Both the position numbers and the translations under genes were made by a program. A stretch of 64,000 nucleotides of DNA from the NCBI RefSeq assembly GCF_040183065.1, contig NC_091122.1, positions 157,556,955-157,620,954 of the forward strand. The letters are read 5' to 3'. This DNA comes from Periplaneta americana (lineage: Eukaryota > Arthropoda > Insecta > Blattodea > Blattidae). Position 1 is the first letter of the stretch. Each line of letters starts with the position of its first letter. Under the pieces are notes generated by a model. That model saw only the letters and a program-made list of their open reading frames with translations. It did not search any database and was not told where the DNA came from. This document shows, one piece after another, positions 13 through 62,433 of this stretch.

Positions 13-420
13 ACTTTTACTTTTCTGAATTAAGTAGCCTGTAGTTTGCGTAATATTCTTGTTATAAGAATTTTAAATTTTGATTTTATAAACAACAGAG
101 GCTTTTATTTTTTTTAATTATGTGTAGTCTGTGTACTAAATTTAGTTTAGAAACGACAGAATTATGTTCTCGTCTACGTAATACACTAATAATAGAATTT
201 TAAATTTTATTTTATAAACAACAGAGACTTTTATTTTTGTGAATTATGTAGCCTATACTTGATCTGCATAATAATCTGGTATTAAAATTTTAAATTTTAT
301 TTTAGAAACAACAGAGACTTTTATTTTTGTGAATTATGTAGCCTATAGTCTGTGTAGGCCTAATACGCTAGTATTAGAATTTTAAATTTTAATTCAGAAA
401 AAGAAGAGATATTTTCGTTA
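13..420. repeat. Degenerate 4-copy tandem repeat, unit about 90-127 bp
   Basis: The core GAATTTTAAATTTT recurs at 68, 195, about 285 and 377, followed each time by a TTTATAAACAACAGAGACTTT-like stretch and, in later units, a TTGTGAATTATGTAGCCTATA segment. Spacings are 127, 90 and 92 bp. The units have diverged by substitutions and small indels. The fourth unit carries an extra GGCCTA at 357-362 that the other units lack. No coding potential is seen. Confidence 0.7.
355..362. other. TAGGCCTA micro-insertion in a tandem repeat unit
   Basis: This repeat unit reads GTGTAGGCCTAATACG, whereas the sister unit near 176-184 reads CTACGTAATACAC. The difference is an added GGCCTA at a TA dinucleotide. 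Confidence 0.65.
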
Positions 421-877
421 ATTAAGTTATGTAAAATTTTGTGTCATTCCCAAGTTATTTTATCAAAACGGAACTGTCTTCGAAAATGAACTTTGCTCTT
501 TCGGGGTACTTTCACGTAACGTTTCATATTGGATAATAGGCCTATGTTATTAAGTTATTAAATGAAATGAAATTTTTCTACAAGCTTGCTTCTTAACAAA
601 GTTAGAAAACTTTAAAATCTTTTGTGTATTTTGAATTATTCTATTCATTATCATTCATCTGTCTCACCTGTACATAATAAAATAAAATATTTCGTCTTAT
701 CGTATCATGCAAGACAATAGATTAAATCATTTTATAAGACGGAATAGTTTGAACTTCAACGTTATTAAAATCCCGTTGATAACAACAAAACTTATAAAAG
801 TGAGGAAGCAGTTTAGGAAGAGACTGACAGGCGATATTTCTTTCAGAGATCGGAACGTTTCTGGTAGCCTCAACCAT
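421..877. other. AT-rich stretch with no gene recognised
   Basis: No family or motif was recognised apart from a TAGGCCTA at 537-544. An open frame from 707 runs into the GGT microsatellite and is not supported as a gene. Confidence 0.5.
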
Positions 878-950
878 GGTGGTGGTGGTGGTGGTGGTGG
901 TGGTGGTGGTGGTGGTGGTGGTGGTGGTGGTGGTGGTGGTGGTGGTGGTG
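878..950 (+). repeat. (GGT)n microsatellite
   Basis: About 24 uninterrupted GGT units. Read in frame it gives a polyglycine tail to a 90-codon open frame, which is best treated as an artefact. Confidence 0.95.
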
Positions 951-1273
951 ATAATATAATTTCTGTTAAAATAACTTAACTCTGTTTAAATAAATTATAT
1001 TCGTGTGATTAACATGAAAAATATGTAAGCCTATTAGGCTTATTATGGTTTCCTACACAAATATTATCGTATACGTTCTATAAGTGTCTATCTTTATTGC
1101 ACTAGCAATTGGTTTAACTTGTTGGTATTTTTAGTGTTAATTCAGCAGAGCAGTACGACTGTTAAATGAAAGATTTATTGCTAGATATCTTTATTTCCCT
1201 CCCTACCAATAATAAAACTAATGCCGATTTACTTTGTTATTTGTAAACATAGTACCATGACAACTCAAAGTCT
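951..1273. other. Unassigned AT-rich stretch
   Basis: Nothing recognisable on either strand. AAGCCTATTAGGCTT at 1028-1042 is a short palindrome-like variant of the TAGGCTA motif. Confidence 0.4.
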
Positions 1274-1325
1274 AAAGCAGTATTTCCCAACCTGTGGTCC
1301 GCGGACCCCCAGAAGTTCGCGAGTA
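1274..1325 (+). mobile_element. Possible hAT terminus remnant
   Basis: CAGTATTTCCCAACCTGTGG followed by TCCGCGGACC resembles the CAGNG...TTTC...CC start and GGTCCGCGGACC segment of the two hAT relics at 13175-14433 and 33363-34595. No opposite terminus or target duplication was found, so this is at most an end fragment. Confidence 0.35.
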
Positions 1326-1986
1326 ATCCGCAGGAACAACATATATTTTTCAAATGGCATTTCAATTAAACTTAACTTCATCGCTTTCTCTGATTTTCCT
1401 CAGCTTGAAGAAACATTTGTTTGTTTGTGTCAGACTTGTGAGATACGGAGTTTATCAGGAACGAGATAACCTGAGGGACTTCTCTTAGCTTGCAAGTCTA
1501 GCCTACCTATCTGTTACGGTACTTTCGATTTTTAAATTCTTTGAATTCAATTTTCAGGGTCCAGCTTTAGGTGTTCACCGTTAAGGATAAGATTGAAGCA
1601 ATGATAAAGAAATTAAATTTTGTGGTCTAGCTGTGTTGTCAATCGAGAATTCGATTAATTTCCCACTCTAAGTGACCTCCTAACAATAAATGGTGATGAA
1701 CTCCGATATCTTTGGGAGTACGAAGAACATCTTGATTTATTAACATTAAAATTAAGGGAATATTTTCCTTTCTGCAATTGAAAAGACAATTCGGTGAAAA
1801 TTCTTCTGTGTGACAAAAAATAGTTCGTCCGTCATTCGAGCTTAAAAATCGTGTTTTCCACAACGACCTTGTTGCATTCACCCACGTGTTTCCATGTTTT
1901 CCGATCTACAACACAACACCTAAACGTCATTTCCATCAACATACTTGTGTCCAGTGTACATTTTCTGTTGGTCTCCATGAAGAATT
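1326..1986. other. Unassigned stretch with an unrecognised open frame
   Basis: An 80-codon open frame on the minus strand (1881-1639) has no recognised motif. A TAGCCTA lies at 1499-1505. No gene is supported. Confidence 0.35.
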
Positions 1987-2024: not shown

Positions 2025-2029
2025 TCCTT

Positions 2030-2615
2030 GCAGGTATTAGGCCTAGTGGCCTGTTACGGTCTCCGTCCATCTTTTCAGGGGGCGTCCCAAAGATCGTCTT
2101 CCATGTGGTATGTAGCGGAGAATTTGTCTTGGGAGTCTGGAACGGTCCATCCTATTGACATGTTTAAGCCATTTTTGTCTATAGTGGTTGAGATGTTCAT
2201 AAATAGGTGTAGTTTTCAATTCTTTTTGTAATTAGTTCATTCTTTTTGTGGTCAAGCAAGCTGTAGCCGGCAGTCCTCCTTAGAAATCTCATTTCTGCAG
2301 TTGTTAGGCGTTGAACATCTGAGTTTCGGACAGTCCAGGCCTCACTACCATACATGAGGACAGGTCTTGCTAGAACTTTATATGCTTTTAACCTGGTATG
2401 TTTTTGGGTTTTCGTGGTTGTGAAAATCTGATTGATGGTTCTTAAGGCTCAATTAAAATGTTGAATATTTTCAAGTATATCAGTAACAGGTAAATATGTC
2501 AAATTATAACCTAAATATTTAAATGAGTTTACCTGTTCTAACGTATGGGTTCCAATGCAAATTTTACTCCTAACCTCGGAACGCCATAATTTTTTATTAA
2601 AATTGATATAGGCCT
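2030..2615 (-). pseudogene. Non-LTR retrotransposon RT family B, C-terminal relic
   Basis: Reverse transcriptase of a LINE-type element; only the region after the catalytic core is present. Reading from 2615 down, one frame shows a thumb-like segment with FKYLGYNL, then a stop (about 2430), then LARPVLMYGSEAWT, RNSDVQRLTTAEMRFLRRT and a frameshift near 2195. A second frame continues with QKWLKHVNRMDRSRLPRQ and GRRSLGRPLKRW, the typical end of this family. Damage visible by eye is one internal stop and at least one frameshift. TAGGCCTA lies at both edges (2038-2045, 2609-2616). The GAT tail follows on the same strand. Related to the longer copy at 37425-39430. A dead, 5'-truncated insertion; the family is sure and the exact ends are approximate. 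Confidence 0.75.
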
Positions 2616-2924
2616 AAATGCAAATTTAATGTTGAGTTAAACTTGCGATTTAAGAGTATCTACAACTGAAGCAGACTTGTCAAAACTGCCAACTACCAGC
2701 CAATATCAACCACCCAAATAACAACCTTACCTCAAGTCTAAGAAACTAATTTCATTTTTCTCAGGAAAACGTGATATCTTTGTATTTATGTGTTTTCAGA
2801 TTGAAATTGTATTCAAAAGCTAAAACTAAAATTTAACATCGCTACCAATTCATTAAAGGTACTTATGTAATTCACTATATTATGTATGTAATGAGTAGAA
2901 CATATTTATGGGCATAAAATATGC
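2616..2924. other. Unassigned AT-rich stretch
   Basis: No recognisable family, repeat or terminal motif. Confidence 0.35.
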
Positions 2925-3232
2925 AAAATATTTTTGGGGGTCCGTCAATACCAACACGCTCTTTTATGTCTATACACAATTTTCTATAACTCTTCTCCAA
3001 ATTACTTATCTTCACGGTTTCAGTTCCTAACCACTTCACGAAATCAGCTTCAATCTCTCCTCTCTATTACTCCTCACAGAACTTCCCTATACTCATCCTC
3101 CTTTACTGTAGGCTATCATTGCCTCGCCTCTGGAATTCGTTACCTAGTGACGTCAGGGGTTGCCGGACAGTCACAGTTTAAAAGTAAACTAGAAAAATAT
3201 GTTTTATCTCACGAAATCTGTTTCTGAGAAGT
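2925..3232 (+). pseudogene. Jockey-like RT (family C), C-terminal relic
   Basis: This is the last part of a LINE RT polyprotein. The frame shows LLCLYTIFYNSS, then HRTSLYSSSFTV, a signature shared with the copy at 35298-35765 where it is followed by RHWNSLPPEVKGCRT. Here the frame is disturbed by GGCTA at 3111-3115. Dropping those five bases restores RLWNSLPSDVRG immediately after FTV. A second, compensating indel lies about 50 bp on, before FKSKLEKYVL. The coding end is followed by a 3' UTR ending in a hairpin and an AAATA tail (3570-3840). 5'-truncated and dead. Family assignment to the Jockey/CR1-like group is by recall. Confidence 0.7.
3109..3115. other. TAGGCTA micro-insertion breaking an RT frame
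   Basis: GGCTA added at a TA causes the frameshift between SSSFTV and RLWNSLP in the family C RT relic. The intact frame is seen if the five bases are ignored. Confidence 0.7.
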
Positions 3233-4229: not shown

Positions 4230-5345
4230 TCTATACTAATAATAAATCTGTAGCCGAAATTTTTCTGGTAATTTTGGATTTTCCAAAAATAATTGGTCCT
4301 AACATATATAATTAACCACCCTGAAACCGAAAATCGCATTTTTGCAATTTTTGTTTGTATGTCTGTCTGTATGTTTACCTTTTCACGCGGTAATGGCTGA
4401 ACCGATTTATATGAAAATTGGAATATAAATTAAGTTCGTTGTAACTTAGATTCTAGGCTATATGGCATTCAAAATACTTTATTTAAAAGGGGAGTTATAG
4501 GGGGGCCTGAATTAAATAAATCGAAATATCTCGCTTATTATTGATTTTTGTGAAAAATGTTACATAACCAACGTTTCTTTAAAAATGATTTCCGATAAGT
4601 TTTATTCTTTACAAAATTTTGATAGGACTGATATTTAATGAGATAAATGAGTTTTAAAATTAAAATAACGCCATCTAAGACGGTGCAATGAATTAAGAAC
4701 AAATGACTTCGTCTATAAGGGGCCTTGGACAACAACAATCGAAAAAGGGGCCTTGGACATCAACAATCGAAAGCTATTAAACATAGCATACAGAGAATGT
4801 TTCTGTGTTTGTATGAAGTAATATCAGAAGCTATATTAACCGATTTGTATAATTAATTATTATTTCACCATTGGAAAGTGTAGTTTCTCTAGATGGACAT
4901 AATGCTATAATGTTATTACAGTAACGTCTGAGTAAATCGAGGACAGGTAAGATTGAAATAGCTTCTTATGCACAGAAAATTTGATAGGCTATTTTGTACA
5001 TTCGTTTTCTGTATTTCTTAAAATAATATTTATGTACACTCATTTTAATCTCAGAGAATTAACGAACAACGAGAGTGTATTGATTTAGTATGCAGTAATA
5101 GTACGTTAGCTTAGCAATCCATTATTTTATAATTCAAATTTTAACTATGCTCAATTGAATCGTGTTAAAATACATAAAATGTATTTATGCAATAAATGCA
5201 ATGCAAAAAAAATTGGGTAATGAGCGAAGCAGATTATCTTGCGATGTTGTAAAAGTTGTTCCCTGGATCAAACGTCCTATATTCATTATGTAATTACTTT
5301 ATATTTATTTCTAACAGGTGCAACGGAGCGCACGGGTACGGCTAG
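4230..5345 (+). mobile_element. Non-autonomous Helitron, complete ends
   Basis: The element starts TCTATACTAATAATAAATCT at an A|T position in the AAAT array. It ends GTGCAACGGAGCGCACGGG then TACGGCTAG, followed by T. The 5' TC, the 3' CTAG, a subterminal GTGC/GCAC stem and A|T insertion without target duplication are the textbook Helitron signs. Its 1116 bp contain no Rep/helicase frame, so it must have moved in trans. It contains TAGGCTA at 4454-4460 and 4985-4991. A direct repeat, GGGGCCTTGGACA, occurs at about 4720 and 4746. Confidence 0.8.
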
Positions 5346-6075: not shown

Positions 6076-6649
6076 TTACACACTAAAAATATTAATTCTC
6101 CTCAACTGCTGTGATTTTTTCAGAAAAGTGTCTCTGTTGCATTACTCACACAGCGGTAAGCCTACAGACTGTCGAGTTTCTATTCTGATGTAAGCAGAGA
6201 GATCCTGCACGTGATAATTCCCCGAATGCCATTTGCTGAGCTACTTCAGCGAAATGCAAAACCTTGCAGGTCAGCATCATCTGATCTGGTGAAGCGGACA
6301 TGTTTAGCACTAAGTGAGGTCTTTGCTAATGATGTTAATTACTCAGTAATAAGCTAATAACCTTTTCTATGCATTTAAAACACAAGCCACTTGTTACATC
6401 TTGGAACTGTCAGCTAGTTCTGATGATGAAAATCTCGAATTTCTTCAGGAAAAATATCTTCACTTGAATACACACATTCTGTTCTCGAAATGTTTAGAGG
6501 TTTAATGGTTTAGAATTTTATCAACATTAATTATAAATTACAACACATAAACTGGTTAATAGTCTATTTGTAGGCCTATGTGTGTACAGTAGGTAGGTCT
6601 ATAGTAGCGCCTACCTTTGTAGGCCTATATAGCCTATGTAAAAAATTAA
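6076..6649. other. Unassigned stretch
   Basis: No recognised element. It holds a cluster of TAGGCCTA (6571, 6620) and TAGCCTA (6630) motifs. Confidence 0.35.
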
Positions 6650-8494: not shown

Positions 8495-8502
8495 TAGGCC
8501 TA
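8495..8502. other. TAGGCCTA micro-insertion in minisatellite unit
   Basis: GTAACATAGGCCTACAG here versus GTAACATACAG in neighbouring units. The same change at 8649-8656 was copied by higher-order duplication. Confidence 0.75.
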
Positions 8503-8841
8503 CAGTATTCTTAAGTTAGTAACATAAACTTACAATATTCTTAAGTCAGTAACATACAGTATTCTTAAGTAGTAAAATACAGTGTTCTTAAATTAGTAAC
8601 ATACAGTATTCTTAAGTAGTAACATACATTATTCCTAAGGTAGTAACATAGGCCTACAGTATTCTTAAGTTAGTAACATAAACTTACAATATTCTTAAGA
8701 CAATAACATACAGTATTCTTATGTAGTAAAATACAGTGTTCTTAAATTAGTAACATACAGTATTCTGAAGTAGTAAAATACAGTATTCTTAAGGTAGTAA
8801 CATACAGTATTCTTAAGTTAGTAACATAAGCTTACAATATT

Positions 8842-9445: not shown

Positions 9446-10100
9446 AGATAAATACAAGCTCGTGGTCTCTGAATATGGAGGTCTACTACTCATAGGCTAA
9501 TGTTTTTTAACTCGGATATGAAATGTTAGTCCTATATTACATAGGCCTACAGCCAGTTACTAAATTTACATAGTAAAGCGAGAGATATATTTGAATTGAA
9601 GAATTGTGTGGCACGCAAATTTGAAATTAAAATTCCAAGCTCATTTAGCCACAGGCGATATGATTTATCCTGCGAACTGAATCACGAATCAATCGGCAAT
9701 ACCAAATTATACAGACTCTGTCTGTGTAGCATCTGCTTCGAGCCATCCTTTCACTATTATTTCTCTACTTATTAAACATAGTTTCTGGAGGTTCGCTATT
9801 TCCAGTTGGAAGATCTACAGCCTTCTCGTAGCCTATAGGCCTATCAGTTATGACGTAAAATTACAATATTTAATTTATAACCAAAATGCTCCCAATTGCT
9901 TCACACAACATCAAGAATTCAAATACACTGTGAAGTTTGAAAAAATCCGAGATAATCGACTGACAAAATATGAATTAATGTCCAAGATGCAGAACACGCG
10001 TTCATAGTTTTATGGCTTGAAGATTTTATGTAACATAATTATTTAGAAAATTGCATGATTTTCGCCTTAAGCTAAGATGATGTGAGGCCGAAATCTTTCG

Positions 10101-10102: not shown

Positions 10103-10164
<62 letters not shown>

Positions 10165-10165
10165 G
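10103..10165. repeat. (ATT)n microsatellite
   Basis: About 20 ATT units, broken at the end by GGCCTA (TAGGCCTA at 10163-10170). Confidence 0.9.
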
Positions 10166-10204
10166 GCCTACTATTACTGAAATATAGAGCGAAATGTTAA
10201 TAGA

Positions 10205-13453: not shown

Positions 13454-13460
13454 TAGCCTA
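13454..13460. other. TAGCCTA micro-insertion in hAT copy 1
   Basis: GTGGTAGCCTATACGCTAG here versus GTGGTACACGCTAG in the sister hAT copy (reverse strand, about 34312-34325). Five bases (GCCTA) were added at a TA after the two copies diverged. Confidence 0.75.
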
Positions 13461-14433: not shown

Positions 14434-14940
14434 CCATAACAGATAAATTCTGTAGGACCAAAAATTAATATTTAAGTAGGTTAAAAACGATTAAATTCAT
14501 ATAAATACTTCTTACGTAGGCTGTTTCAACAATAAACATAAATGCAATCCATATCTATTTAACAGTCATAAATGTTTAAACATTAGTGCAATGGAAACTG
14601 TAGGCCAATTATAACCAGGAATTCTAAACCCCAAATAATGTACAAAGAAATACCGTGCGCATTCATAGATATCAAATCAGTATCGAAAGAGAAATGAACT
14701 CGAAATATTCAGCTCGATGCACGCAATATAGCAACAAAATAATTATCTCACCTTTATCAACATAAGTAAGAAGAAAATGTCAAGAACGCATAAACTACGT
14801 AATTTTCCCAATCAAGTTATCTTTGTGCGACAGAAAAGAAGTTGAAGTAGAAAGTCCGCACTTTGAAGTTAAAATCTGATAAGTCGCCAAAAAATAAGAG
14901 CTTGACATATCATAAGCTTATATAGCCTATTATCTCTGAT
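14434..14940. other. Unassigned stretch
   Basis: AT-rich, no recognised element. Confidence 0.35.
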
Positions 14941-17640: not shown

Positions 17641-17811
17641 ATAACAAATTTAATAAGAATATTCTGTAATTTTGTAGAGACGATACAAATGAACAGCAAT
17701 TTAACAAAAATGTTAAAAAATATTTTTTTTATAGGCTATGCCGATATTTGTCCCAGAAACTGGTGAAAAAATATCTGGTACATAACCTTATTTTAAAATG
17801 AAAACCCGGAC
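17284..17811. repeat. Tandem segmental duplication, unit 1
   Basis: Starts CATTTCGTACTATGTTCTG and ends AAAATGAAAACCCGGAC. The same sequence recurs in unit 2, 17812-19051, with high identity. Unit 1 preserves the uninterrupted site TTTTGTAGAGACGATAC at about 17671 that is occupied by an RT insertion in unit 2. Confidence 0.85.
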
Positions 17812-18236: not shown

Positions 18237-18906
18237 GGAAATATAAAAATTGGAGATTTATCCTTCGAAGAGGTGGAAAAATTCAAATATCTTGGAGCAA
18301 CAGTAACAAATATAAATGACACTCGGGAGGAAATTAAACGCAGAATAAATATGGGAAATGCGTGTTATTATTGGGTTGAGAAGCTCTTATCATCCAGTCT
18401 GCTGTCCAAAAATCTGAAATTTAGAATTTATAAAACAGTTATATTACCGGTTGTTCTTTATGGTTGTGAAACTTGGACTCTCACTCTGAGAGAGGAACAT
18501 AGGTTCAGGGTGTTTGAGAATAAAGTGCTTAGGAAAATATTTGGGGCTAAGTGGGATGAAGTTACAGGAGAATGGAGAAAGTTACACAACACAGAACTGC
18601 ACGCATTGTATTCTTCACTTAACATAATTAGGAACTTAAAATCCAGACGTTTGAGATGGGCAGGGCATGTAGCACGTATGGGCGAATCCAGAAATGCATA
18701 TAGAGTGTTAGTTGGGAGACCGGAGGGAAAAAGACCTTTAGGGAGGCCGAGACGTAGATGGGAGGATAATATTAAAATGGATTTGAGGGAGGTGGGGTAT
18801 GATGATAGAGACTGGATTAATCTTGCACAGGATAGGGACCGATGGCGGGCTTATGTGAGGGCGGCAATGAACCTTCGGGTTCCTTAAAAGCCATTTGTAA
18901 GGAAGT
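18237..18906 (+). mobile_element. RT family A, 5'-truncated insertion with target duplication
   Basis: Flanked by ATTTTATAGAGACG (18223-18236) and ATTTTGTAGAGACG (18907-18920), a 14 bp duplication with one mismatch. The undisrupted site is present once in duplication unit 1. The insert begins GGAAATATAAAAATTGGAG, in mid-coding sequence, and ends AAAAGCCATTTGTAAGGAAGT. This defines both the family's true 3' end and the truncation point. Confidence 0.9.
18273..18887 (+). pseudogene. RT family A C-terminal frame, 204 codons uninterrupted
   Basis: This frame encodes the part of a LINE RT polyprotein downstream of the catalytic palm. It reads [60 protein letters not shown], a [17 protein letters not shown] linker, RRLRWAGHVARMGESRNAYR, VGRPEGKRPLGRPRRRWEDN and a terminal RAYVRAAMNLRVP. 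YGCETW and GHVARM mark the thumb and C-terminal domain shared by many insect LINEs. The first ATG is internal to the native protein. With no catalytic residues and a 5' truncation it cannot be an active enzyme, but the frame is unbroken, which points to a recent insertion. Confidence 0.85.
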
Positions 18907-19051
18907 ATTTTGTAGAGACGATGTAAATGAACAGCAATTTAACAAAAATGTTAAAATATATTTTTTATAGGCTATGTCGATATTTGTCCCTGAAAGTGGT
19001 GAAAAAATATCTGGTACATAGCCTTATTTTAAAATGAAAACCCGGACAATC

Positions 19052-20789: not shown

Positions 20790-20796
20790 TAGCCTA
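20790..20796. other. TAGCCTA micro-insertion breaking the RT fingers frame
   Basis: CATATGTAGCCTAGATG: dropping GCCTA gives an uninterrupted frame through YVDEIIGDH in this RT copy. Confidence 0.7.
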
Positions 20797-21284: not shown

Positions 21285-21292
21285 TAGGCCTA
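21285..21292. other. TAGGCCTA micro-insertion in RT copy
   Basis: GAGATAGGCCTAGGTTTGG here versus GAGATAGATTTGG at about 55591 in another family A copy; GGCCTA has been added at TA. Confidence 0.7.
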
Positions 21293-21980
21293 GGTTTGGA
21301 AGTTAATCCCTAAAAGACATAGTATATGATTATGTCTCGTGACGAGAATATTGTACGAAATGGTAATATAAAAATTTGAAATTTATCTTCTGAAGAGGTG
21401 GAAAAATTCAAGTACCTAGAAGCAACAGTAACAAATATAAATGACATTCGAGAGGAAATTAAACGCACAATAAATATGGGAAATGTCTGTTATTATTCGG
21501 TTGAGAAGCTTTTGTCATCTAGTCCGCTTTTATAAAGTGAAAGTTAGGATTTATAAAACAATGATATTACCTGTTGTTCTGTATGGTTGTGAAACTTTCA
21601 CTCTCTCACTTTGAGAGAGAAATAGACGTTAAGGGTATTCAAGAATAAGATGCTTAGGATAATATTTGGGGCTAAGAGTGATGAAGTTACAAGAGAATAT
21701 AGCCTAGAAAGTTACACAACGAAAAACTTCACGCATTGTATTCTTCACCTGACATAATTAGAAACATTAAATTCAGACGTTCGAGATGGATAGGGGATGT
21801 AACACGTCTGGATGAATCCAGATATGCTTTTAGAGTGTTAGTTGGAAGACCTGAGGAAAAAGACCTTTGGGAAGGCCGAAACATAGATGGGAGAATAATA
21901 TTAAAATGGATTTGAGGGAGGTGGAATATGATGGTAAGGACTGGATTAATCTTGCTCAGAATAGAGAGAAATGGCGGGCT

Positions 21981-21988
21981 TAGGCCTA
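21981..21988. other. TAGGCCTA micro-insertion near RT C-terminus
   Basis: GGCTTAGGCCTATATGAGG here versus GGCTTATGTGAGG in the copies at 18850 and 56265. Confidence 0.65.
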
Positions 21989-22356: not shown

Positions 22357-22995
22357 ATTAATGTCGAAATTTATCATTTTGTAGCGTTTTGGGGTGGAAC
22401 ATTTTTTATGAGAAGTTTAATGATCGCAAATCAATGTCATCAATGTGTTAACAGGTGCATTTTCTATATTTTTCAGTTAAAATTATTGAAAATAATAAGT
22501 TAAGTGAAGGAAAACATAAAATTACAGTGAAATTGTGAATATTAAGAAACGAGCCAAAAGATAGGCTTATGATGTGATTTTACTCGACTCATCTTGTTAC
22601 ATAATCACTATCACTAATATTCTACCACCAGACAGATTGGTTGAAACTCGAAATAACGGTACAGGTAACAACAAAGAGGGTATAGGTAGATCTTATTCCT
22701 ATGTTAACTTATAGGCCTACAGAGGAGGTAATATGAGTCCCGAGTGGTTGTTTGCTTACTCCCATCTGAGTCCCTAGTATCATAAGGGTATAGGTAAGCT
22801 GAGTCCCAATATAGGCCTAATTCACAAAAATGCGTGGAGATATATTTGATTTATTATACTGTTATTTTTTGTAAAATATTTCAAAGTTAATAGTTGTTTT
22901 TGTTTATAATACTGTATGATCACATCTTTTGAGACTTACATTGCACCAAATGCGCTATTTCCACCATATCTTTGGGCCGATATCGCAACCACATC
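22357..22995. other. Unassigned stretch
   Basis: A loosely repeated GAGTCCC...GGTATAGGTA motif occurs at 22670-22805. TAGGCCTA at 22712 and 22812. No gene recognised. Confidence 0.35.
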
Positions 22996-23455: not shown

Positions 23456-23625
23456 GGCGAAAACGTAATACGGCGAACGCCAGTAGGGGAACTTATCCCC
23501 ACCCACATGAAATGTGCATTCGACACAACACTAGCCTATCACGTAGAGTGTGTGGTGAGCTTGTAGGGGAAAAGTGGAAAGGGGTCGTGGGCGGAGCTTA
23601 GCGTTCGCCGTATTACGTTTTTACC
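23456..23625. mobile_element. 170 bp MITE inside an AAAT array
   Basis: Ends GGCGAAAACGTAATACGGCG and CGCCGTATTACGTTTTTACC form an imperfect ~25 bp inverted repeat. TAAA lies on both sides; because the host is TAAA-repeated, the target duplication length cannot be fixed. A GG... end with a TAA-type target would fit PIF/Harbinger, but this is inference. Confidence 0.65.
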
Positions 23626-23742: not shown

Positions 23743-24614
23743 ATAGACTACTTCAATCAATGCATTCAAGGACATCCAGTCAAACTCTAATATTTCATTG
23801 AGAAACAAGGGTAAAAAGAGAAGAGAAAAGCAATCGAAGAGAAAAGCAGTCGAAGAGAAGGAAGGGTTTTTAAGAGAAAAAATGACACGTTTGGAGAACC
23901 AAGATATCACAAGATTTCAATTCGTCAAATCAGTTTCTTTCATGTTTTTTTTTTTTCTATAAAAATGGTGCAAGAGGTTGACAATTTCCTAGACGATCTT
24001 AAAGTGAAGCGGCGAAATGTTTTTACCACATAGCCTAGTGTTTTTAACCATAAGATGTGACAAATGTTTAACCACACCGACCAACCTGCTAGTGGTAGGC
24101 TATGTGTGGCGTTGCAATTGCCTTACAATAATAATATGAGCAACACATACAAATAGGTTACCGAGACACAGTCCTGATTGGAGCACTCACAATAATTTAG
24201 AACGAAGTCTCTAAAATGTAAAGTCCTCCAATTTTAATGCAGAATAAGTAAGTTGTATTGATGTTCTTTACGATTATCAGCCATGGATATGGAAAAAAGA
24301 CGAGAAAAGAAACGAGAATTACAGCAGCAGAAATGACATTCCTTTGTATCGTAGAAGAAGACTCGAGAGTAAATAGAGTACCCGACTAAGGAATCAGACG
24401 ACAACAGATCTCTTCAGTGCTCAAGAAAATAAATCAGAATAGGCAAGGAAGAAAGAACCACGTGTATATAAACCTACTTACTGTTACGCTTCTTAATGAA
24501 TAGAAACTTTCTTACTAAACCAATTTCAATTAAAAAATTAAAGACCTTACAGAAAAGATGCATTGGGCCAAGTAGGAAAAGTAATTTAGTAATTCGAAGC
24601 TGGTGTTGTGATCT
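23743..24614. other. Unassigned stretch
   Basis: Purine-rich patches near 23815-23885. TAGCCTA at 24031 and TAGGCTA at 24096. No gene recognised. Confidence 0.35.
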
Positions 24615-24646: not shown

Positions 24647-24689
24647 AAACTTAGTAGCCTACATCTTGGCGGTAAGTTTATAACGATAT

Positions 24690-26885: not shown

Positions 26886-27547
26886 CCATGCCGAGAATGA
26901 AATTCTCTTTTGAAATTTCTTCAGCGAATTGAAACATATTATATTTTGGGAACACCCAGTGTAGTCTAATCCAGGGACTAATGGCTTTCTCTCAATACGC
27001 AGGTATAGGAACCTAAAATAAAAATCTATAGATTTTCCTGCTCAAGCTTGTCTGGAGCTGAACTAAGATATTGCCGTCCTTTGTGATTCGGTCGTATAAC
27101 TGAAAGCAGCGAGAGTTACGGCTCTCATATAGGCCTAGTCTAGTACAACGCACAGACTAATACACATACAGGTGTTTGCGTTGCTATGGAAACCGGACTC
27201 TTATGAAGCACGGGTAATTGGATATAAAATTTTATGAACATGCTCCAACTTCAGACCTTCTTAAAATACACGCCACTACAGCAGTCACAAGACAGAGCAT
27301 TATGATTAAGTTTGCATCAACGGATTTCTTATACAATACGTTACATACAGCAGATCCCTTTATTGCTTTATTGGTCGCATCAAATAGTTCCTGCAGTATG
27401 ATTGAAATAAAATTATTAAATTCATTTCATCTTGGGTTATTTACTTCCTTTTTAAAGAATTTCTACTCTTACCGGACGTGGTATACGAAACAGCTCTCAA
27501 TAAAAGTAATTATCTTGGATTCGTATCCCATCTTATATAGCTAGTCA
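26886..27547. other. Unassigned stretch
   Basis: A 108-codon open frame at 27218-27544 (+) lacks recognised motifs. TAGGCCTA at 27130. No gene supported. Confidence 0.3.
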
Positions 27548-28570: not shown

Positions 28571-29084
28571 GATATAGGTTACGCATACAAACGAACGACC
28601 TTTTGTGTGATCATGGCGTGAGTGTTTCTAACATTTCTTTGCGTTTAATTTAATGTTGAACAAAGTGAAATGACAATACAAGTAGGCCTATTCCATCCCA
28701 CAGTTTTCATGTACAGTACGTACGGTTCATATGTACCTAGGTATTAACGGATTTGAGATGTGACCGTTCTGACGCAGAAGGTGAATGGGGTAGCCTACTG
28801 AAAAACTAATAACAATTAAATAGACAGTCGTTCTATTTTCAAGTATATTGTTTAATTTAAAATAATATCTATATTTTATTTTGTTTTGAAAAACATTAAC
28901 ATTAAAAATACTTTACTTCATGTGTGACTGAAAAGTGTAGACCTATCAAAGAATTTCTAATATGGTTGGAAAAAAGACTTTCTTTTAGGCCTATGTTATT
29001 ACTTTTTATTTTAGTTCTTTCACCTTATTCTAGATGCATATACAGCCAAAGCTACTGGAAAGATAAATTACATAATTATGTTCT
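28571..29084. other. Unassigned stretch after R1
   Basis: The first ~50 bp continue R1 (GGTTACGCATACAAACGAAC). The rest is AT-rich, with TAGGCCTA at 28683 and 28986 and TAGCCTA at 28791. Confidence 0.35.
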
Positions 29085-30797: not shown

Positions 30798-30798
30798 T

Positions 30799-35070: not shown

Positions 35071-35297
35071 AATAGTAATAATAAAATAGTGCAATACAAA
35101 GCATAGCCTACAATGAATACAACATTTTTAAGTACACACAGTAAGGAATATTATGATTATAATATAGCTCAACTTATCACATTATAGATAGGCCTATACC
35201 ATTATCGGAAAATATGGAAACAAAAATATAAAATAAGTTAAATGCCACTGGAACATAAAAAAATGTGAATACGTGGAAGCATGCAATACAACACTTG

Positions 35298-37581: not shown

Positions 37582-37588
37582 TAGGCTA
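37582..37588. other. TAGGCTA micro-insertion breaking RT family B
   Basis: AAATATAGGCTAGTGG: dropping GGCTA leaves AAATATAGTGG and restores an RT-like frame down to the NRCW segment; with it the frame ends at 37624. Confidence 0.75.
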
Positions 37589-37802: not shown

Positions 37803-38106
37803 AAAAGGTAGGCCTAAAGGTATCCCCGTAACATGCCATGAAGGCACTTGGGGGGGGGGATGGAGGTAGAGCCCCATGCTTTCAATGACCTCGGCACTAG
37901 AATGAAGTGGTGTGGTCGGCACCACGCTCTGACCGCCTTTTACCCCCGGGAAAGACCCGGTACTCAATTTTATAGGAGGCTGAGTGAACCTCGGGGCCGT
38001 TCTGAAAGTTTGACAACCAGAAAAAATCCTGTGACCATCTGGGATCGAACCCCGGACCTTCCAGTCCGTATCCAGCTGCTCTACCAACTGAGCTACCTGG
38101 CCGCCG
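37803..38106 (-). mobile_element. SINE type C, full length, inserted in RT family B
   Basis: Target duplication AATGAGAAATATAA (37789-37802) and AATGAGAAACATAA (38107-38120), one mismatch in 14. Minus-strand head: GGCGGCCAGGTAGCTCAGTT (A box), GGTTCGATCCC (B box). Body: TTTCCCGGGGGTAAAAGGCG and a run of G/C near 37850. The end is TACCTTTTTT. A plus-strand fragment of the same family lies at 49905-49990. Confidence 0.85.
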
Positions 38107-43353: not shown

Positions 43354-43798
43354 ATAATGTTGTTTTGTTTGTTGGTTTGTTATTTTTTCAAATAATTCTT
43401 GATCAAGTTTGAACAAATTTAATTCAAAAGTTGTGTGTGTACTGTACCTTTTATCTATTGAAAATTTGAATTTATGTAATTATATCAAGACAAATTATAT
43501 TAGATAGAATGTTAATTATTACAATAATTTATTGAAATTATAAATAATGTTAAAGGGAAAGGAGCAAAAATTTCGAATCTTATAAATTTTGATAAATATT
43601 TTGGTTCTTGAAAAGATCAGTTTCTGGTTCATGTTGCCTTAATAAATAGGCTATATAGATATTTAATTTTTAAGAATAGCCGTAAGGATACATTTTTAAC
43701 GATCTGGCAGTTTTTGCGACCCTTTTCAGAGGTTGGACATAAAACCTATTCCAAAAACCTAAAATGGTCTTTTTAAGAACCTAAAAATCCGGTCGCTA

Positions 43799-44322: not shown

Positions 44323-45570
44323 TCTATATATATATATAATTTGAACTGGTAATGGAAATTACGGGAAAACGGCTGAACGGATTTTAATGAGTGACCCCTC
44401 ATTTTCATGCCTGGCATCCGAAGTTTTTCGGAAAAGTAGTAGTTTTCAGTGAAATGTCAATTTTCCTACATAATTTTCCTATTTTCCAAACTCCATCTGC
44501 TGTCAGTTTTGAGAACTAATTTTAATGAATCACGGCCGACTTGATTGAATTTCAGAACAAAACACACACTACAATAAACAATAGGCTAGTACACGAAGGC
44601 CATGACCTGCAGGATTGCCGACATATTTAGAGCTCAATTCAATTTGTTATTAAAAATTGATTCTGCAGTGTATAATTTTCTGAGTACAGCTGTGTGTTGG
44701 ATATTCAAATCTACGAAACTTGAGGTGGTTTGATGACATTATTACCATTAGAAATTAAATATTATTATAGTTAATATCATGATGCATCTATTTTTCATTA
44801 ATTGTACATAATATTGGTGCTATATTTATGACATGAAAGTGAAATGTTTTGAGGTTATGTAAGTAAATGTAGAGAATATCTTAATTTAGATGTTCATTTC
44901 TATAATTAATGATTGGCTGCTATGTATAACTACAAAGCTTAAGTAAGATAATAATATTGTTATTAAAAATCAAATATTTTTATACTTATTAACCCAGTGG
45001 TTGCGTCTTTTTCACATACTTAATGGCGGTGTAGTGTAGATATTGATATGTGTCATTGTCTTCAGTATTGGCTCGAGAGAGCGCAAAAATTACAGTTCCT
45101 AAGGAAAGATAAAAAGGTATTACTTACTGATAAAATAAGAGGCCTAGAAAATTTTGTAGTCTCCAGATCATTTCAGCAAGATCTCTTAGTAGGATAAAAT
45201 AATTTTATGCTCTATATTTCAAGTTCTACATGCAGCAGCTATACGAAAATGCTATTGTTCGAAAGCTTAGCAAACCTGACATTTTTTTAACTTTTGCCTA
45301 CAATCCACAATGACCTGAAATAGCTACTGCTATCGTCCTGACGTTGATACTTGCGTTTTCGCGTTGAAACTCAAAAACTGAAGTTGGATAGGTTCAAGAA
45401 AAAGTATTTGGCCTAAAAAAATCCATTGGGAGGGAGTATGTTTCACTATTATGGAAGCAAATAACTATAAAAAAAGACAAGTATTCTTCATGGAAAATAA
45501 ATCTGAAAAATTTTTATTTGAACGTCTAACGAACTTAGTTTGCAGCAGCATTTGCTGCACAAGCCACTAG
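44323..45570 (+). mobile_element. Non-autonomous Helitron, second family
   Basis: Begins TCTATATATATATATAATTT after an A. Ends with the hairpin GCAGCATTTGCTGC then ACAAGCCACTAG, followed by T. TC/CTAG ends, an 11-12 bp gap after the hairpin and A|T insertion identify a Helitron. No Rep/helicase frame in 1248 bp. TAGGCTA at 44582-44588. Confidence 0.8.
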
Positions 45571-51015: not shown

Positions 51016-51732
51016 AAACGTTGTGGTTTGTGTACCTTAATTAGTACTGGAGTAAAATATCAAATCTATAGGCCTATCTCTCTTTCTGAATAAGCCACAT
51101 TGCTTCGTCTCTCTTTTTGTAAATGACTTCATTTCTTGTTCTCAATTTACAGTTCTGATTTGTCATTGAGTTTAAGGATATATTTACGCAATTTCTCGAT
51201 GTAAACACAAAATGGCGCTCTCACAACGATATCGGCCAGAGAAAATTAAATTGATAACGGATAAACATCCGTGTCGTAGATGAGCTCACATTCATCTTCG
51301 TAACTGTTCAGCGTTACAGCTAAGTAAGACATTAGGCTACGTACACAATGGATAGGTAAGCTTAACTGTGATTTAGAAAGGCATATTTTAACGACATATT
51401 TTTAGATTTTTTTTTTATTTAATAATAATATATACATAAAAACGTTGCATTAAAATACCCCGAAAGAGCAAAGCTACTTTGTAGACAAGATACTTAAGAA
51501 AAAAGCTCACATAAAGATGATAATAAAATTAGTAAATAATAATACTAGTAATAACTGAGTGAAAAAAGAGACGATGTTGAGTTTGATGGCTTAATATTAA
51601 ATTATTAGTAGTATTATAATTAGTGCAGGTCATGTTGATATAATAACCAAGATAAAATAGAAAAATACACTTAGGATAGAAATAAACTTGTTTTACAATA
51701 CATGGTACATAATATATATACAGGGAAGTCTG
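51016..51732. other. Unassigned stretch
   Basis: AT-rich. TAGGCCTA at 51069, TAGGCTA at 51333. No gene recognised. Confidence 0.3.
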
Positions 51733-52335: not shown

Positions 52336-52566
52336 ATGCTTGATTAAGACAGGTTCATAAAGTATTAACAGTAGCTAGTCTCAAACAGTAAATTAAATTG
52401 TATTTTTCTTATCTGTACTTAGGCCTATATATAGTCGCCCAACGCCATATCGCGACTGTCTGTAGTTTTTACTGTTGGGAATGAACTGTGATACTGTATC
52501 TCTTATTCCATGGCAATTAGGGTCCAATCCGTCATTCTGTATTTAACTGAAAATTAGTTATATCCA

Positions 52567-52680: not shown

Positions 52681-53634
52681 TTCATATGTTTCTGAAAATA
52701 ATAGAAAAACGTGCAGTGGGAAAATTTATCTCTACATTTTTAAAGACTACAGTGATATATATATACTATAATACAGGGTGGAAGTGAAATAGTTTTCCAG
52801 ATTTTCAGAGATAATGGCTCATGTTACATGTAAAAAAACTATAATATCATACATAGTGGAAAGTTCGTAGTTTTTTTTTTTTTTCAGATAAAGAAATGTT
52901 TTTCCCAAATGTTTAACAACCTCTTATTCGGTAACTATTGCGAGTAGGATAGTCATTTTTTTTTCATATCGATAGGAAATCTAATAAATAATAATTTATC
53001 CCTCTGGAGTATTTCAATAACGTGGACGGTTTCCGTGTAAATTTAATTTTAAAAACCTCTAATTTCAAACCACTGCACAATACGAGCAAGTGGCAACGTC
53101 GAGGCAGAGAGCAGGTCACCTACAGAGACGCACTGAGTTCGTTGACCTCTTACATCTGTATTACAAGAAGAGTGTGTTAGCGGCGATGTTGCCGGACTGC
53201 TGAAACTTCCAACTTAATTTTCTAATTAACCGTGGATTTAACCACAGAACGATCATTTAATCAAAACGACTTAAGTAGAGTTAAGCTGTTATTGCACCCA
53301 GCACCTCAACTGTGAAGTAGTCGGATACATGGAATAAAGAAAACGTTCCTGTATCGGATAGATGGATACAGATTTTTTTTCTGAAATCAGCTAAAAACGC
53401 CTGGACTTTCAAGACTTTGTAACATCGTAGAATTTCTTTGCCTTCTAGGAAGTAGGCTACAGTAGTCACTGAGAAAATATTTTCTGTTATGAACAGTATG
53501 TGGTCAAATGATAAATCTAGGTTAAATGTTGAGACAATGAGGAGTATGTTAGTTGTAAGGGAATACTGAATCATGGAATGTGAGAAGACTTAGGCCTACA
53601 AGGTGCTGAAAGACCGAAATTTGCTATATTGTTG
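52681..53634. other. Unassigned stretch
   Basis: TACAGGGTGGAAGTGAAAT at 52773 looks like a Tc1/mariner-type end, but no partner was found. An unrecognised 97-codon minus-strand frame lies at 53574-53281. Confidence 0.3.
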
Positions 53635-55493: not shown

Positions 55494-55501
55494 TAGGCCT
55501 A
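55494..55501. other. TAGGCCTA micro-insertion inside a target-site duplication
   Basis: The left target duplicate reads AGTAGGCCTAATACAC and the right one (56315) AGTAATACAC. GGCCTA was therefore added to the left copy after the RT A insertion. Confidence 0.75.
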
Positions 55502-55542
55502 ATACACTTATCAGCCATTTTCGATTTCTTATAATATACAAA

Positions 55543-58575: not shown

Positions 58576-59920
58576 GTTCGAGATAGTATGGACAACATAT
58601 CACTGCGTTCCGTACAAAGATAAGACCAGACATAGCAGTATATTTCAATATGCAGCACGTCGTATTTACTGATAAGAGCAATGGCAAAATTGAATTGTCA
58701 TGGTAACATAGAAAGGTCTTAGTGTTACAATGCAACACAAAGTTACATTAGGCTTTCCTTATATCATTTCAGCGATAGCCTACGTGTGAATGACTTTCTC
58801 ACATAAATTAGAAGTGTCTGCAGACTAGTTCACGGTGAGGTTGGTCGCATAACTAATAGAAAATGCAGTGCATAAATCGGTCAATGCAATTCATGAAGCA
58901 CTGAACAATGCACCGTTTTTTGAATGAGAATTGTATGAATATCTAGAACTTTCTAATAGGCCTATACAGGGACAGCTTCACTTGATAGATGCCCCAAACC
59001 TTTAGCAATAAAATTACTATTCAGAATGGAAGTGATATAGCTATGCAGATAGAAGGGAACAATAGAATACATTAAAATAAATAAAAAAACATGCGTTTTC
59101 TAATTAAGTGCATGGTTAATAGGGATATCTTATGAGAAGTTTTACCGTTAGATGGCAGGAGCGTTCCATGCGGCGCAACATGTTGCAGGGCTATGTTATG
59201 TAATATGCTACAGTTGATTACGTTTTCCCGCTTGTTGGTTTTCTGTGCGTGTCAAAATTTTATTTACAATTATTTTGTATAACCTAGTATAATTTAATAT
59301 AATTCAGTATTTTTACCTCATAATTTAATTTAATTTACAATAAATAATAGCGTAAACCTGTATAATTATACTGAACGATTTCTCTTACGAGATGGGTTGG
59401 GAAATCTGCAGTATGAAAAATATAGGTACGAGTAAATTGAATGTTCATGAACCTAAACGAGAACTTTGAGAACAAGGTGCACGAATAAAAAATAGGAACT
59501 TTGTCGAAGGTGAATGGTGCTCTTTAATCATAAGTATTGTAAGTACCGTACGCTAAAAACAAGATATGCAGCCACAAATGTGTTTTTTTTATAGGGAAGG
59601 GACTATCGAAATTGAATTCCTCGTATTTTTTCTATAGTTGCAGAGAGATCAATTGCAATATTTGATAGGTTGATATAATATGATCGCAGTAGTATGACGA
59701 TTATTCGTGCGTTTTGTAGGTTAAGGACATGCAGTTTTGAATACTATGTAGGATGATTTTGAAAATTTAAAGCTAGAATATGGTTTTAATAATTAGTCTA
59801 AAGTACATTAAAACATTATTCATGAATTTCACTACGGATCGTCCTGGATAATAAACATGACACTTTATCGAGAGTTTGTTTCAGGCGTAAACTTCGGAGA
59901 CTTCTACAACTACTGCATAC
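58576..59920. other. Unassigned stretch
   Basis: No recognised element over 1.3 kb. TAGCCTA at 58776 and TAGGCCTA at 58957. One of the longer candidate stretches for single-copy DNA. Confidence 0.35.
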
Positions 59921-60117
59921 TACTAGGTTCAAAAAGTTCCCGGAATTTTACTACCATTTTTCGTATTAATATATAACAAGGGATATTATACATTTGTTTT
60001 GTTGGTAACATTCATGATGTCATTTCCTTAAAGTTTGCTGATAATGGCAATTATTGGTTTTGAGTTGTAGGCAATTGTTTATCATAGTGTTTTGTTTGTT
60101 CGTCGCATTTTGTAATT

Positions 60118-60956
60118 ATGTCCACAGAGCAAAGTACAAACATCAAGTTCTGTGTTTTGCTGGGGACATGATCAGTATGGCTGATGAAGATGGTGATTTC
60201 TTAAACAAAATGAAACTGGTGCTACTTGTACGACCCAGTCCCTAAACGACAGTCATCTGAGTGGAAATCGAAAACATCTCCTCGGAAGCAAAAATTTCCT
60301 AGGGACACTTCCAAAGGCAAAGTTATTTTAAATGTTATGTTTTATTTAACGACGCTCGCAACTGCAGAGGTTATATCAGCATCGCCGGATGTGCCGGAAT
60401 TTTGTCCCGCAGGAGTTCTTTCACATGCCAGTAAATCTACTGACATGAGCCTGTCGCATTTAAGCACACTTAAAGCAAAGTTATGTTGGAAGTTTTCTTC
60501 GACTCTCAGGGTCTCATGCACCATGAGTTCATTCCAGAAGGTCGTACTGTAACGAAAGAATTGTACGTAGAAACCCTCCGTCGCCTCTGGGACGCAGTGA
60601 GAAGGAAACGTCCAGAAAAGTGGGTAGAAAACAACTGGTTCCTTATGCATGACAATGCACCTGCTCATCGCGCAATTATTGTAAAGAATTTTCTTGCCAG
60701 GCACAACATAACTGCTTTGGATCACCCACCATACTCTCCTGATCTCTCACCACCTGATTACTTTCTGTTTCCCCGTCTGAAAAGTCATCTGAAAGGACGG
60801 AGATTCAATGCTGAAGAGGTTATCGCAAACGCGACGAGAGCACTAAGACGGGTTTCACAAAATGGCTTCCAGGCCTGCTTCCAGGAACTCTACACGCGTT
60901 GGCAAAAGTGTGTTGTTGCGGAAGGCAACTATTTTGAAGGGAATGCTGTAGAATAG
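60118..60956 (+). pseudogene. mariner transposase (DD34D), deleted and SINE-interrupted
   Basis: N-terminal remnant MSTEQSTNIKFCVLLG (60118-60168), then a large deletion. The ETWCYLYDPVPKRQSSEWKS region follows in broken frames; the Asp of the first catalytic motif is lost to a short deletion near 60210. KSKTSPRKQKFPRDTSKGKV leads into the SINE. After it, an open run gives LEVFFDSQGLMHHEFIPEGR, NNWFLMHDNAPAHRAIIVKN (second Asp) and HPPYSPDLSPPDYFLFPRLK. The spacing from the D of HDNAPAH to the D of SPPD is 34 residues. The C-terminus NYFEGNAVE is complete. Full relatives are about 345 residues. Inactive. Confidence 0.9.
60327..60474 (-). mobile_element. SINE type B, 5'-truncated, inserted in mariner
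   Basis: GCAAAGTTAT flanks both sides (60317-60326 and 60475-60484). The insert has the tail side TTTATTTAACGACGCTCGCA and the body to TTAAGCACACTTAA, lacking the tRNA head. Confidence 0.9.
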
Positions 60957-61016
60957 TGTTTAAGGTACGTTGTTTCTATGATGCTAGCAAATTCCGGGAA
61001 CTTTTTGAACCTAGTA

Positions 61017-62433
61017 TGTATAATCTAAGTCATCTAAGCTAACATAACTCGCTGTCGAGGTTGCATATGTTTTTATTAATTTTTCTTTTTCCTCTTCCAA
61101 AATGAAACTGTAGCCAATAATTCCTTACTTGAAGTAGATACTTTTGTTTAATAACGCAATTTAATTAGTTCTATTTTTTAAGGTTTAAAGCATATATTCA
61201 GAATATTTCGGGACCTGAATGAAGATAAAAAGCTTTCCCTGGTTTTTGCATATAGGAACATAACAAAAATTTGGCATTTTGAGTTGTTTTTAAGAGTATT
61301 TAATATACTAATACACTACATAAATCCTCAATGTTTATATACCGAAAAACAAATGCACACGCAAAGCGCATCCCTCAAAGTACACGTGCGCTATCTGTTG
61401 GTGCTACTTCAGGATATCCCTATTAGGAACTTAAGCTGGAAGTTTGTGTAGTTTGGCAACAGCGCATCGCCGGCTTACGTATGCAAACACACACGCGCTC
61501 GTTGTGAATGGTAGCATTCCGATCCTTAGTCACTGCAGCAGGGTTGCCAGAATTCGTAACGGCAGGAAATAACGATCCGCGTTAATCTTTTCATTTATCT
61601 TGTAAGAAACACGTCCATTTTATTTAAAAAAAACTGCAAAGGGCTAAATCATTCCTTAGCAATGTCTCTAATGATATGAGTAAAAATCAGAATCGTACTG
61701 ATAGTACTTATCGAGTAAAACTGCGGTAACATTTAGAAGAATTTTTTTTTTTTCTGAGAAAGTATTCATTTGAGACTAATAGGTTATGGTATTATAATAT
61801 TTTGTTGCACTTTATCTAAGGGATAAGCTGTTAAAATCTACATAGTTATATTTAGGCTTCATATTCCAGCTACCTAAAGACTGAAGTTAAAGACACATTG
61901 GTTGTATAGTACGCCGAACACAGATAATGTAAAGAATAAGGATATAAACAAACGCGTCGTCGCTGCGTGTTCGTGGAATACGGTCAACTCCCGACATTCT
62001 GAAGCTATTACTAGTAAACAAATGCTTGAGCCGTAATGTTCATTTTCGTAGTGATCTTTGCAGTGAATAATAACGTGCATTCGTAAGTTATTGAACTTGA
62101 ACATATGCGGATATCATTTGAAATGATTTTATTTGCAAGAAATTATATCAATGGGATATGACGTTATTGCTGCATGATGTAGTACAAGATATTCCTATTG
62201 TATGATATTTTTTCGTGTTTCATTATGATATTGCATGTCGCTCATCACTGAAGCCCCACTAATTTTCTATATACCTTTTCTAGAAATTCTCTAAAATGTA
62301 GATTATTTAATTTATTAATTGAGATCTTAGCATTGAACAACATGGTAGGCTACACAAATCCATGCTAAACGTCATTTTCTGTGCCTTTTGATATTGCAGT
62401 GTCTTTCAGTGCACTGTTTTTGTCACTTTTAAG
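61017..62433. other. Unassigned stretch
   Basis: AT-rich without recognised element. TAGGCTA at 62346. Candidate single-copy DNA. Confidence 0.35.

Follow-up and report, generated by a model that had tools for sequence, protein, structure and literature searches.

The 64,000-nucleotide (nt) stretch of the American cockroach Periplaneta americana analysed here (contig NC_091122.1, positions 157,556,955 to 157,620,954, forward strand; hereafter the window) carries three short words, TAGGCCTA, TAGGCTA and TAGCCTA, which occur repeatedly at TA dinucleotides. These words are probably excision footprints (scars) of a TA-targeting cut-and-paste transposon that has ends beginning with 5'-GGC and works like Tc1/mariner. 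The 6-bp form refers here to TAGGCCTA and the 5-bp forms to TAGGCTA and TAGCCTA, after the number of bases by which each exceeds a plain TA.

Exact word counts over the 64,000 bases gave 29 TAGGCCTA, 15 TAGGCTA and 16 TAGCCTA, with outermost positions of 249 and 62352. A preliminary description made by eye had put them at about 29 and about 31 and far above chance, and both statements were confirmed, as an order-2 Markov model predicted only 0.6, 2.5 and 2.7 copies, respectively. Masking of tandem repeats, which removed 8,848 bases, left 25 TAGGCCTA against 0.57 expected, 15 TAGGCTA against 2.25 and 16 TAGCCTA against 2.46 (Poisson probability of approximately 3e-32 for TAGGCCTA and 9e-16 for both 7-mers combined). 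The 8-mer comparison proposed in that description was run on the masked window with an order-3 model, and TAGGCCTA showed the strongest excess among all 8-mers seen at least 10 times, while TAGCCTA and TAGGCTA were the top TA-NNN-TA words among those seen at least 3 times. Markov models of orders 4 and 5 raised the expectation for TAGGCCTA to 7.7 and 12.5 because those models already contain the signal. The excess also held against palindromes of the same composition, with TACCGGTA found once and TAGCGCTA and TACGCGTA not at all. In the masked window, 25 of the 32 AGGCCT fell within TAGGCCTA, and TAGGCCTT, TAGGCCTC and TAGGCCTG together were found once (as TAGGCCTT); therefore the excess is tied to the flanking TA on both sides. 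The two strand forms were equal in number (15 and 16, each total including one tandem or duplicate copy). The words TAGGTTA (10 against 3.7 expected) and TAGTCTA (9 against 3.5) were likewise high in the masked window.

All 60 sites, taken with flanks of 120 bp, were compared against the remainder of the window, and 15 of them had a sister copy aligned across the site. Plain TA sisters were found at five independent loci, four of the 6-bp and one of the 5-bp form. Positions 8495 and 8649 are two copies of a single event (97.6% identical over 248 bp) in a minisatellite array in which 12 units had plain TA, two had TAGGCCTA and five had TAAACTTA, TAAGCTTA or TAAGCTTG; the event was read as a gain because the array segment nearest to the 8495 unit (92.7% identity) has plain TA. 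At 13454 the single sister (34204-34438) had plain TA, as did two of four sisters at 21285 (one re-placed by eye; in the remaining two a longer stretch is missing), all seven at 21981 and nine of ten at 29605. None of the 23 other satellite units at 24990 had GGCC and most read TAGTAGAT, which makes this a probable sixth locus; it was graded only probable because a second difference of about 5 bp lies near the site. Among the other examples that had been named as having plain TA sisters, 355 (sister TCTGCATA), 21700 (sisters TGGAG or GAGG) and 55494 were not clean cases; the other copy at 55494 reads GTAAGTAATA, and the site therefore lies at the edge of the duplication. The comparison was without information on gain or loss at 10163, 31292 and 249/339, gave no clear empty site at 537, and showed the scar in both copies at 17732 and 18968 (93.8% identical).

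Indels between repeat copies were also tabulated regardless of sequence, with low-complexity contexts left out, and 88 loci were obtained. Five of the seven 6-bp indel loci were TAGGCCTA (four events), and the other two were an apparent alternative alignment of the 21285 event (at 21290) and an unrelated GTCCTG. Of 14 loci with 5-bp indels, 11 were variants of one satellite, one was 13454 and two were TAGACTA and TAACTTA. Overall, since sister copies at five independent loci carry plain TA, the comparison showed that the bases were gained, at a TA and ending in a second TA, wherever sister copies can judge. The opposite reading, in which the plain TA copies are deletions, had been named as a possible refutation and was answered by these five loci and the probable sixth. 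As judged from the alignments, empty sites support the 6-bp form strongly, while their support for the 5-bp forms comes from one locus.

The target preference was determined for 58 sites with both forms pooled, leaving out 8649 and 18968 as copies. A purine before the first TA together with a pyrimidine after the last TA was found at 33 of 58 sites compared to 24% of all TAs (p 9e-8), and A directly following the TA, or T directly preceding it, was depleted (0.12 against a background of 0.33). Such an R-TA-Y preference is palindromic, as would be expected of transposase targets. Scar pairs at neighbouring TAs (9829/9836 and 6620/6630) and TATA contexts (TATAGGCCTA 6, TAGGCCTATA 6) would fit a preference for alternating sequence. 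In the masked window, one-transition neighbours of TAGGCCTA numbered 12 against 4.6 expected and transversion neighbours 8 against 9.4. The excess of about seven neighbours next to 25 intact copies suggests a mean divergence of a few per cent per site, and the scars would thus be of different ages, although the numbers are small and the estimate is rough.

In the proposed mechanism, the transposon would insert at TA and duplicate it, and the transposase would cut each end at 3 nt within the element, so that both flanks keep a GGC 3' overhang. If the overhangs pair in register, a single central G:G mismatch would remain, and its repair in one direction or the other would give TAGGCTA or TAGCCTA, while a one-base slip would pair the self-complementary GC of each overhang with no mismatch and, after a one-base fill-in, give TAGGCCTA. 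A single element with a single cut would then yield all three scars, and the donor itself may be rare, may have been lost or may lie elsewhere in the genome. The transposases of Sleeping Beauty and mariner are described to nick three nucleotides inside the element, producing 3-nt 3' overhangs, and end joining of these breaks to leave footprints identical to the overhangs (PMC7827188). The observed ratio of 15:16 agrees with resolution of the mismatch either way; this ratio, and the similar numbers of 6-bp and 5-bp forms (near 1:1), would follow if both pairings, with two G:C pairs each, were about equally stable.

Joins between two identical flank overhangs of 2, 3 and 4 nt were enumerated. 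With GGC, an overlap of 3 with one mismatch gave TAGGCTA/TAGCCTA, an overlap of 2 without mismatch gave TAGGCCTA, an overlap of 1 gave TAGGCCCTA or TAGGGCCTA (observed 2 and 0) and an overlap of 0 gave TAGGCGCCTA (observed 0). A 4-nt GGCC overhang gave no 5-bp form, and a 2-nt GG overhang needed a join without pairing for TAGGCCTA and also predicted TAGGTA and TACCTA (observed 20 against 17.7 and 20 against 11.5 expected); for these reasons 3 nt is the best fit of the three in this enumeration. The preliminary description had proposed excision footprints of a TA-targeting transposon with a 4-base self-complementary GGCC overhang and the loss of one base for the 5-bp forms. Its footprint part is the best-supported reading, given the palindromic target and, where sister copies can judge, gains at TA that end in another TA; the details of the overhang change: four bases are not needed, and mismatch resolution of a 3-nt GGC overhang makes a base loss unnecessary. 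The 4-nt version is an unlikely alternative. TAGGCCTA is the most frequent of the three scars (29) and pairs perfectly at an overlap of 4, and TAGGCCCTA, observed twice, is an overlap-3 product; however, TAGGCTA and TAGCCTA, whose combined number (31) matches that of the 6-bp form, are not produced directly, and a stagger of 3 nt is reported for the transposases of Sleeping Beauty and mariner (PMC7827188).

A slightly smaller chance is given to two or more TA-targeting elements, one leaving GGCC and another GGC/GCC. The pooling of both forms in the target analysis leaves room for this, but it is less economical, as the core and the TA flanks are common to both forms. Direct insertion of a tiny GGCCTA at TA by end-joining or integrase activity, with no full element ever involved, is improbable: it would agree with 60 scars in 64 kb beside a donor search of the window that found none, but it demands that one fixed 4-bp sequence be supplied from a source without precedent, and the second TA and the R-TA-Y preference resemble transposase targets. 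The target duplication of Harbinger elements is TAA/TTA. A PIF/Harbinger-type element with ends GG(G/C)CC, the end consensus given for rice Harbinger (PMC4423477), is very improbable since the TAA/TTA target is contradicted by the scarcity of A outward of the TA and by the single TAGGCCTT. The ISL2EU group, related to PIF/Harbinger, is described to duplicate AT (PMC4482050) and was rejected, the duplicated dinucleotide at the scars being TA. An assembly or library artefact such as linker remnants, for which it can be said that AGGCCT is a restriction site, is remote in view of scars common to the duplicates 8495/8649 and 17732/18968 and of a transition-only excess of neighbours like that of ageing sequence. 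The insect telomere repeat unit is TTAGG, and telomere-like repair inserts joined head to head would give TTAGGCCTAA, whose junction contains TAGG+CCTA; this is hardly credible, with TTAGGCCTAA found 0 times in the masked window and no account of the 5-bp forms.

Compared with known systems, the proposed GGC-ended transposon can be set beside Sleeping Beauty/Tc1, which shares a TA duplication around the three terminal nt of the transposon and two middle-base versions of the footprint (PMC4378557, PMC7827188). Sleeping Beauty footprints are given as TACAGTA and TACTGTA (PMC4378557), so that the core is CAG/CTG there and GGC/GCC in the cockroach, where the 4-bp GGCC form is equally frequent and would be possible by a slip, GC being self-complementary. 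The Tc1/mariner miniature inverted-repeat transposable element Stowaway in Triticeae and Osmar5 are reported to leave 1-4 bp of the terminal repeat beside duplicated TAs at historical empty sites, with repeat insertion at one TA (PMC1925063); that report concerns a few gene-intron sites, in contrast to 60 near-identical scars in 64 kb here. Passer (pogo) is also described with TA duplication and 0-4 bp footprints, and is listed with 43 copies in the cockroach Blattella germanica (PMC9976928). PIF/Harbinger ends can likewise be GGCC (PMC4423477), but its target is contradicted as above. With TA duplication at the scars (not at an element) at five loci and one probable locus, and a 3-nt footprint in both mismatch resolutions, working like Tc1/mariner is well supported and membership in Tc1/mariner is not established. 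A search of open-licence literature, judged by the titles of the papers listed, found no description of TAGGCCTA-type scars; excision footprints as such are known, and the dense footprint population with a GGC/GGCC core appears new.

Beyond the window, GGCCTA at a coding TA would give the residues GL (NTA GGC CTA), RP (NNT AGG CCT A..) or a stop. All-against-all comparison of 233 long interspersed nuclear element (LINE) proteins (P0121-P0353; 221 named P. americana and 12 without species name) was used to find private insertions, defined by at least 50 sisters without the insertion and identity at 7/9 or more of the flanking residues to the left and to the right. The counts for insertion lengths of 1, 2, 3, 4, 5 and 6 residues were 10, 7, 2, 0, 0 and 0. 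The seven 2-residue insertions, all in proteins named P. americana, were GL (P0316), GL (P0162), RP (P0344), SL (P0331), SL (P0159), TS (P0174) and WV (P0326), and three of them (GL, GL, RP) match exactly the predicted in-frame products of GGCCTA (p 3e-4, given a guessed 2% chance per insertion). The scar-free coding site in three LINE copies of the window reads ACA GTT ATA TTA CCG, and the RP between V and I, the GL after I and the GL after L correspond to the three adjacent TAs of GTTATATTACC in three phases. These are separate events because the three proteins come from three different contigs. SL would follow from GL after one transition (GGC to AGC). If the reading is true, the DNA behind P0162, P0316 and P0344 would read ATAGGCCTATTA, TTAGGCCTACC and GTTAGGCCTATA, respectively. 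An earlier version based on multiple alignment gave 19 two-residue inserts with one GL and one RP; because of noise at ragged ends it gave way to the all-against-all comparison.

The search for elements bounded by TAGGCC...GGCCTA suggested in the preliminary description was run on the window with ends starting exactly with TAG[GC]C at distances between 60 and 8000 bases, the next 21 bases being scored. The best 12 candidate pairs consisted of LINE copies in inverted orientation and of pairs no better than chance, and the best 25 TA-bounded inverted repeats were LINE copies, minisatellite copies and two inverted duplications; all were rejected. The window does hold a mariner (59921-61016) with end bases matching 28/28 (TACTAGGTTCAAAAAGTTCCCGGAATTT, the first TA being the target), which encloses a C-terminal transposase open reading frame (ORF) of 157 amino acids. 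Among the 120 matches listed for this ORF (60483-60956), 15 were from P. americana, 13 of them at 89-100% identity and two at 81% and 57%, and the best LINE matches of the window were also P. americana proteins. Viral contigs probed with the LINE and mariner proteins had 2 and 3 stretches that matched the pattern, with none confirmed, and plasmids gave one match at 25%. In bacterial and archaeal genome contigs, two of ten stretches were confirmed, both insect-LINE-like pieces at the ends of metagenome-assembled genome contigs (L001, JAITUS010000078.1, 4733-5089; L002, JAISPR010000115.1, 2-472) and probably host contamination or chimeric assembly. They held no TAGGCCTA and one TAGGCTA (in L001), which is too little insect DNA to judge.

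Several of these results weigh against excision of a GGC-ended element. No element with TAGGC...GCCTA terminal inverted repeats was found among the best 12 pairs in the 64 kb. Tc1/mariner ends mostly start with C or T, and the ends of the window mariner begin with CTAGGTTC after the TA (TACTAGGTTC...), not GGC, so that its scar would differ. The Mos1 transposase is described to contact the 3' end base purine-specifically (PMC4505599), with which the 3' C left by a GGC end would be mildly at odds. In the enumeration, a GG overhang also makes all three products possible, and the two TAGGCCCTA (0.12 expected) fit a 4-nt overhang equally well as a 3-nt one. The five minisatellite units with TAAACTTA, TAAGCTTA or TAAGCTTG are a 6-bp variant of other sequence and could be decayed scars or something else; TAGACTA and TAACTTA are 5-bp indels of TA form that are not of the GGC type; and a clean empty sister for the 5-bp forms was found at 13454 only. 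In the LINE proteins, TS and WV could each lie at a TA and neither fits GGCCTA, and the GL, GL and RP insertions are known from protein sequences, not DNA. Finally, the ordinary Tc1 words TACAGTA (30) and TACTGTA (22), which looked strong before masking, were dropped as a positive control, as masking of tandem repeats left 6 TACAGTA against 5.9 expected, and thus no enrichment, and 15 TACTGTA against 5.8.

A further and tentative proposal is that an undescribed TA-targeting transposon with GGC ends moved so frequently in the ancestry of the cockroach that its scars greatly outnumber its surviving copies. The cockroach genome size is some 3 Gb; if the proposal is true and the window typical, the genome would hold on the order of a million or more scars. 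These would amount to a fossil record of excision across the genome and offer a natural measure of repair, in register against slipped at about 1:1. The history of transposons is usually read from the copies that stayed, while a uniform and countable scar would record the copies that went, and excision rate, target choice and repair choice would become measurable in a single genome over long periods. The scars would also bring 5-6 bp insertions into genes of the host and of transposons, giving frameshifts, GL or RP dipeptides and stops, and a GGC end gives a sharp, testable prediction for repair.

Table 1. Scar words and the related LINE site in the window. Rows without further remark are based on exact word match and position in the window; a dot marks a palindrome, which has no strand.
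Feature	Position	Strand	Basis
TAGGCCTA scar	355..362	.	word match; sister copy not clean
TAGGCCTA scar	537..544	.	word match; sister alignment not clean
TAGGCCTA scar	2038..2045	.	word match
TAGGCCTA scar	2609..2616	.	word match
TAGGCCTA scar	6571..6578	.	word match
TAGGCCTA scar, beside a TAGCCTA	6620..6627	.	word match
TAGGCCTA scar in minisatellite	8495..8502	.	sister copies, indel tabulation
TAGGCCTA scar, tandem copy of 8495 event	8649..8656	.	sister copies, indel tabulation
TAGGCCTA scar	9542..9549	.	word match
TAGGCCTA scar, directly 3' of TAGCCTA	9836..9843	.	word match
TAGGCCTA scar in TTA microsatellite	10163..10170	.	word match
TAGGCCTA scar in LINE copy	21285..21292	.	plain TA in sisters, indel tabulation
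TAGGCCTA scar in LINE copy	21981..21988	.	plain TA in sisters, indel tabulation
TAGGCCTA scar	22712..22719	.	word match
TAGGCCTA scar	22812..22819	.	word match
TAGGCCTA scar	24843..24850	.	word match
TAGGCCTA scar in 54-bp satellite, probable	24990..24997	.	sister units TAGTAGAT
TAGGCCTA scar	27130..27137	.	word match
TAGGCCTA scar	28407..28414	.	word match
TAGGCCTA scar	28683..28690	.	word match
TAGGCCTA scar	28986..28993	.	word match
TAGGCCTA scar in 100-bp satellite	29605..29612	.	plain TA in sisters, indel tabulation
TAGGCCTA scar	35189..35196	.	word match
TAGGCCTA scar	37809..37816	.	word match
TAGGCCTA scar	51069..51076	.	word match
TAGGCCTA scar	52420..52427	.	word match
TAGGCCTA scar	53591..53598	.	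word match
TAGGCCTA scar, edge of duplication flanking LINE fragment	55494..55501	.	word match; no clean empty site
TAGGCCTA scar	58957..58964	.	word match
TAGGCTA 5-bp form	3109..3115	+	word match
TAGGCTA 5-bp form	4454..4460	+	word match
TAGGCTA 5-bp form	4985..4991	+	word match
TAGGCTA 5-bp form	9493..9499	+	word match
TAGGCTA 5-bp form, common to 18968	17732..17738	+	sister copy
TAGGCTA 5-bp form, copy of 17732	18968..18974	+	sister copy
TAGGCTA 5-bp form	24096..24102	+	word match
TAGGCTA 5-bp form	31292..31298	+	word match; short sister TAGGTTA
TAGGCTA 5-bp form	32160..32166	+	word match
TAGGCTA 5-bp form	37582..37588	+	word match
TAGGCTA 5-bp form	43647..43653	+	word match
TAGGCTA 5-bp form	44582..44588	+	word match
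TAGGCTA 5-bp form	51333..51339	+	word match
TAGGCTA 5-bp form	53453..53459	+	word match
TAGGCTA 5-bp form	62346..62352	+	word match
TAGCCTA putative 5-bp form, tandem repeat with 339	249..255	-	word match
TAGCCTA putative 5-bp form, tandem copy of 249	339..345	-	word match
TAGCCTA 5-bp form	1499..1505	-	word match
TAGCCTA 5-bp form	6630..6636	-	word match
TAGCCTA 5-bp form	9829..9835	-	word match
TAGCCTA 5-bp form	13454..13460	-	plain TA in sister
TAGCCTA 5-bp form	14923..14929	-	word match
TAGCCTA 5-bp form	20790..20796	-	word match
TAGCCTA 5-bp form	21700..21706	-	sisters TGGAG or GAGG
TAGCCTA 5-bp form	23532..23538	-	word match
TAGCCTA 5-bp form	24031..24037	-	word match
TAGCCTA 5-bp form	24655..24661	-	word match
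TAGCCTA 5-bp form	28062..28068	-	word match
TAGCCTA 5-bp form	28791..28797	-	word match
TAGCCTA 5-bp form	35104..35110	-	word match
TAGCCTA 5-bp form	58776..58782	-	word match
GTTATATTACC in LINE copy	18438..18448	+	scar-free form of GL/GL/RP insertion site

Other features of the window were also recorded. The minisatellite array (8196-9456) reverses its orientation near 9070 (arms of 223 nt, 98%), and in some of its units the palindromes TAAGCTTA or TAAACTTA stand where others have plain TA, a second 6-bp variant. A LINE fragment (55500-56360) lies between copies of a duplication of approximately 40-45 bp (TAATACACTTATCAGCCATTTTCGATTTC...), which is long for a target duplication. An inverted duplication at 57313-58065 has 92-nt arms that are 99% complementary and 569 nt apart, and the ORF inside it (57331-57729) had no Pfam match. 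In addition, an inverted repeat was found at 46526-47377 with 105-nt arms, 90% complementary and 642 nt apart. Finally, the segment 12778-12987 contains a tRNA-Tyr gene on the minus strand and, 63 bases from it, a weaker match to another tRNA on the plus strand.

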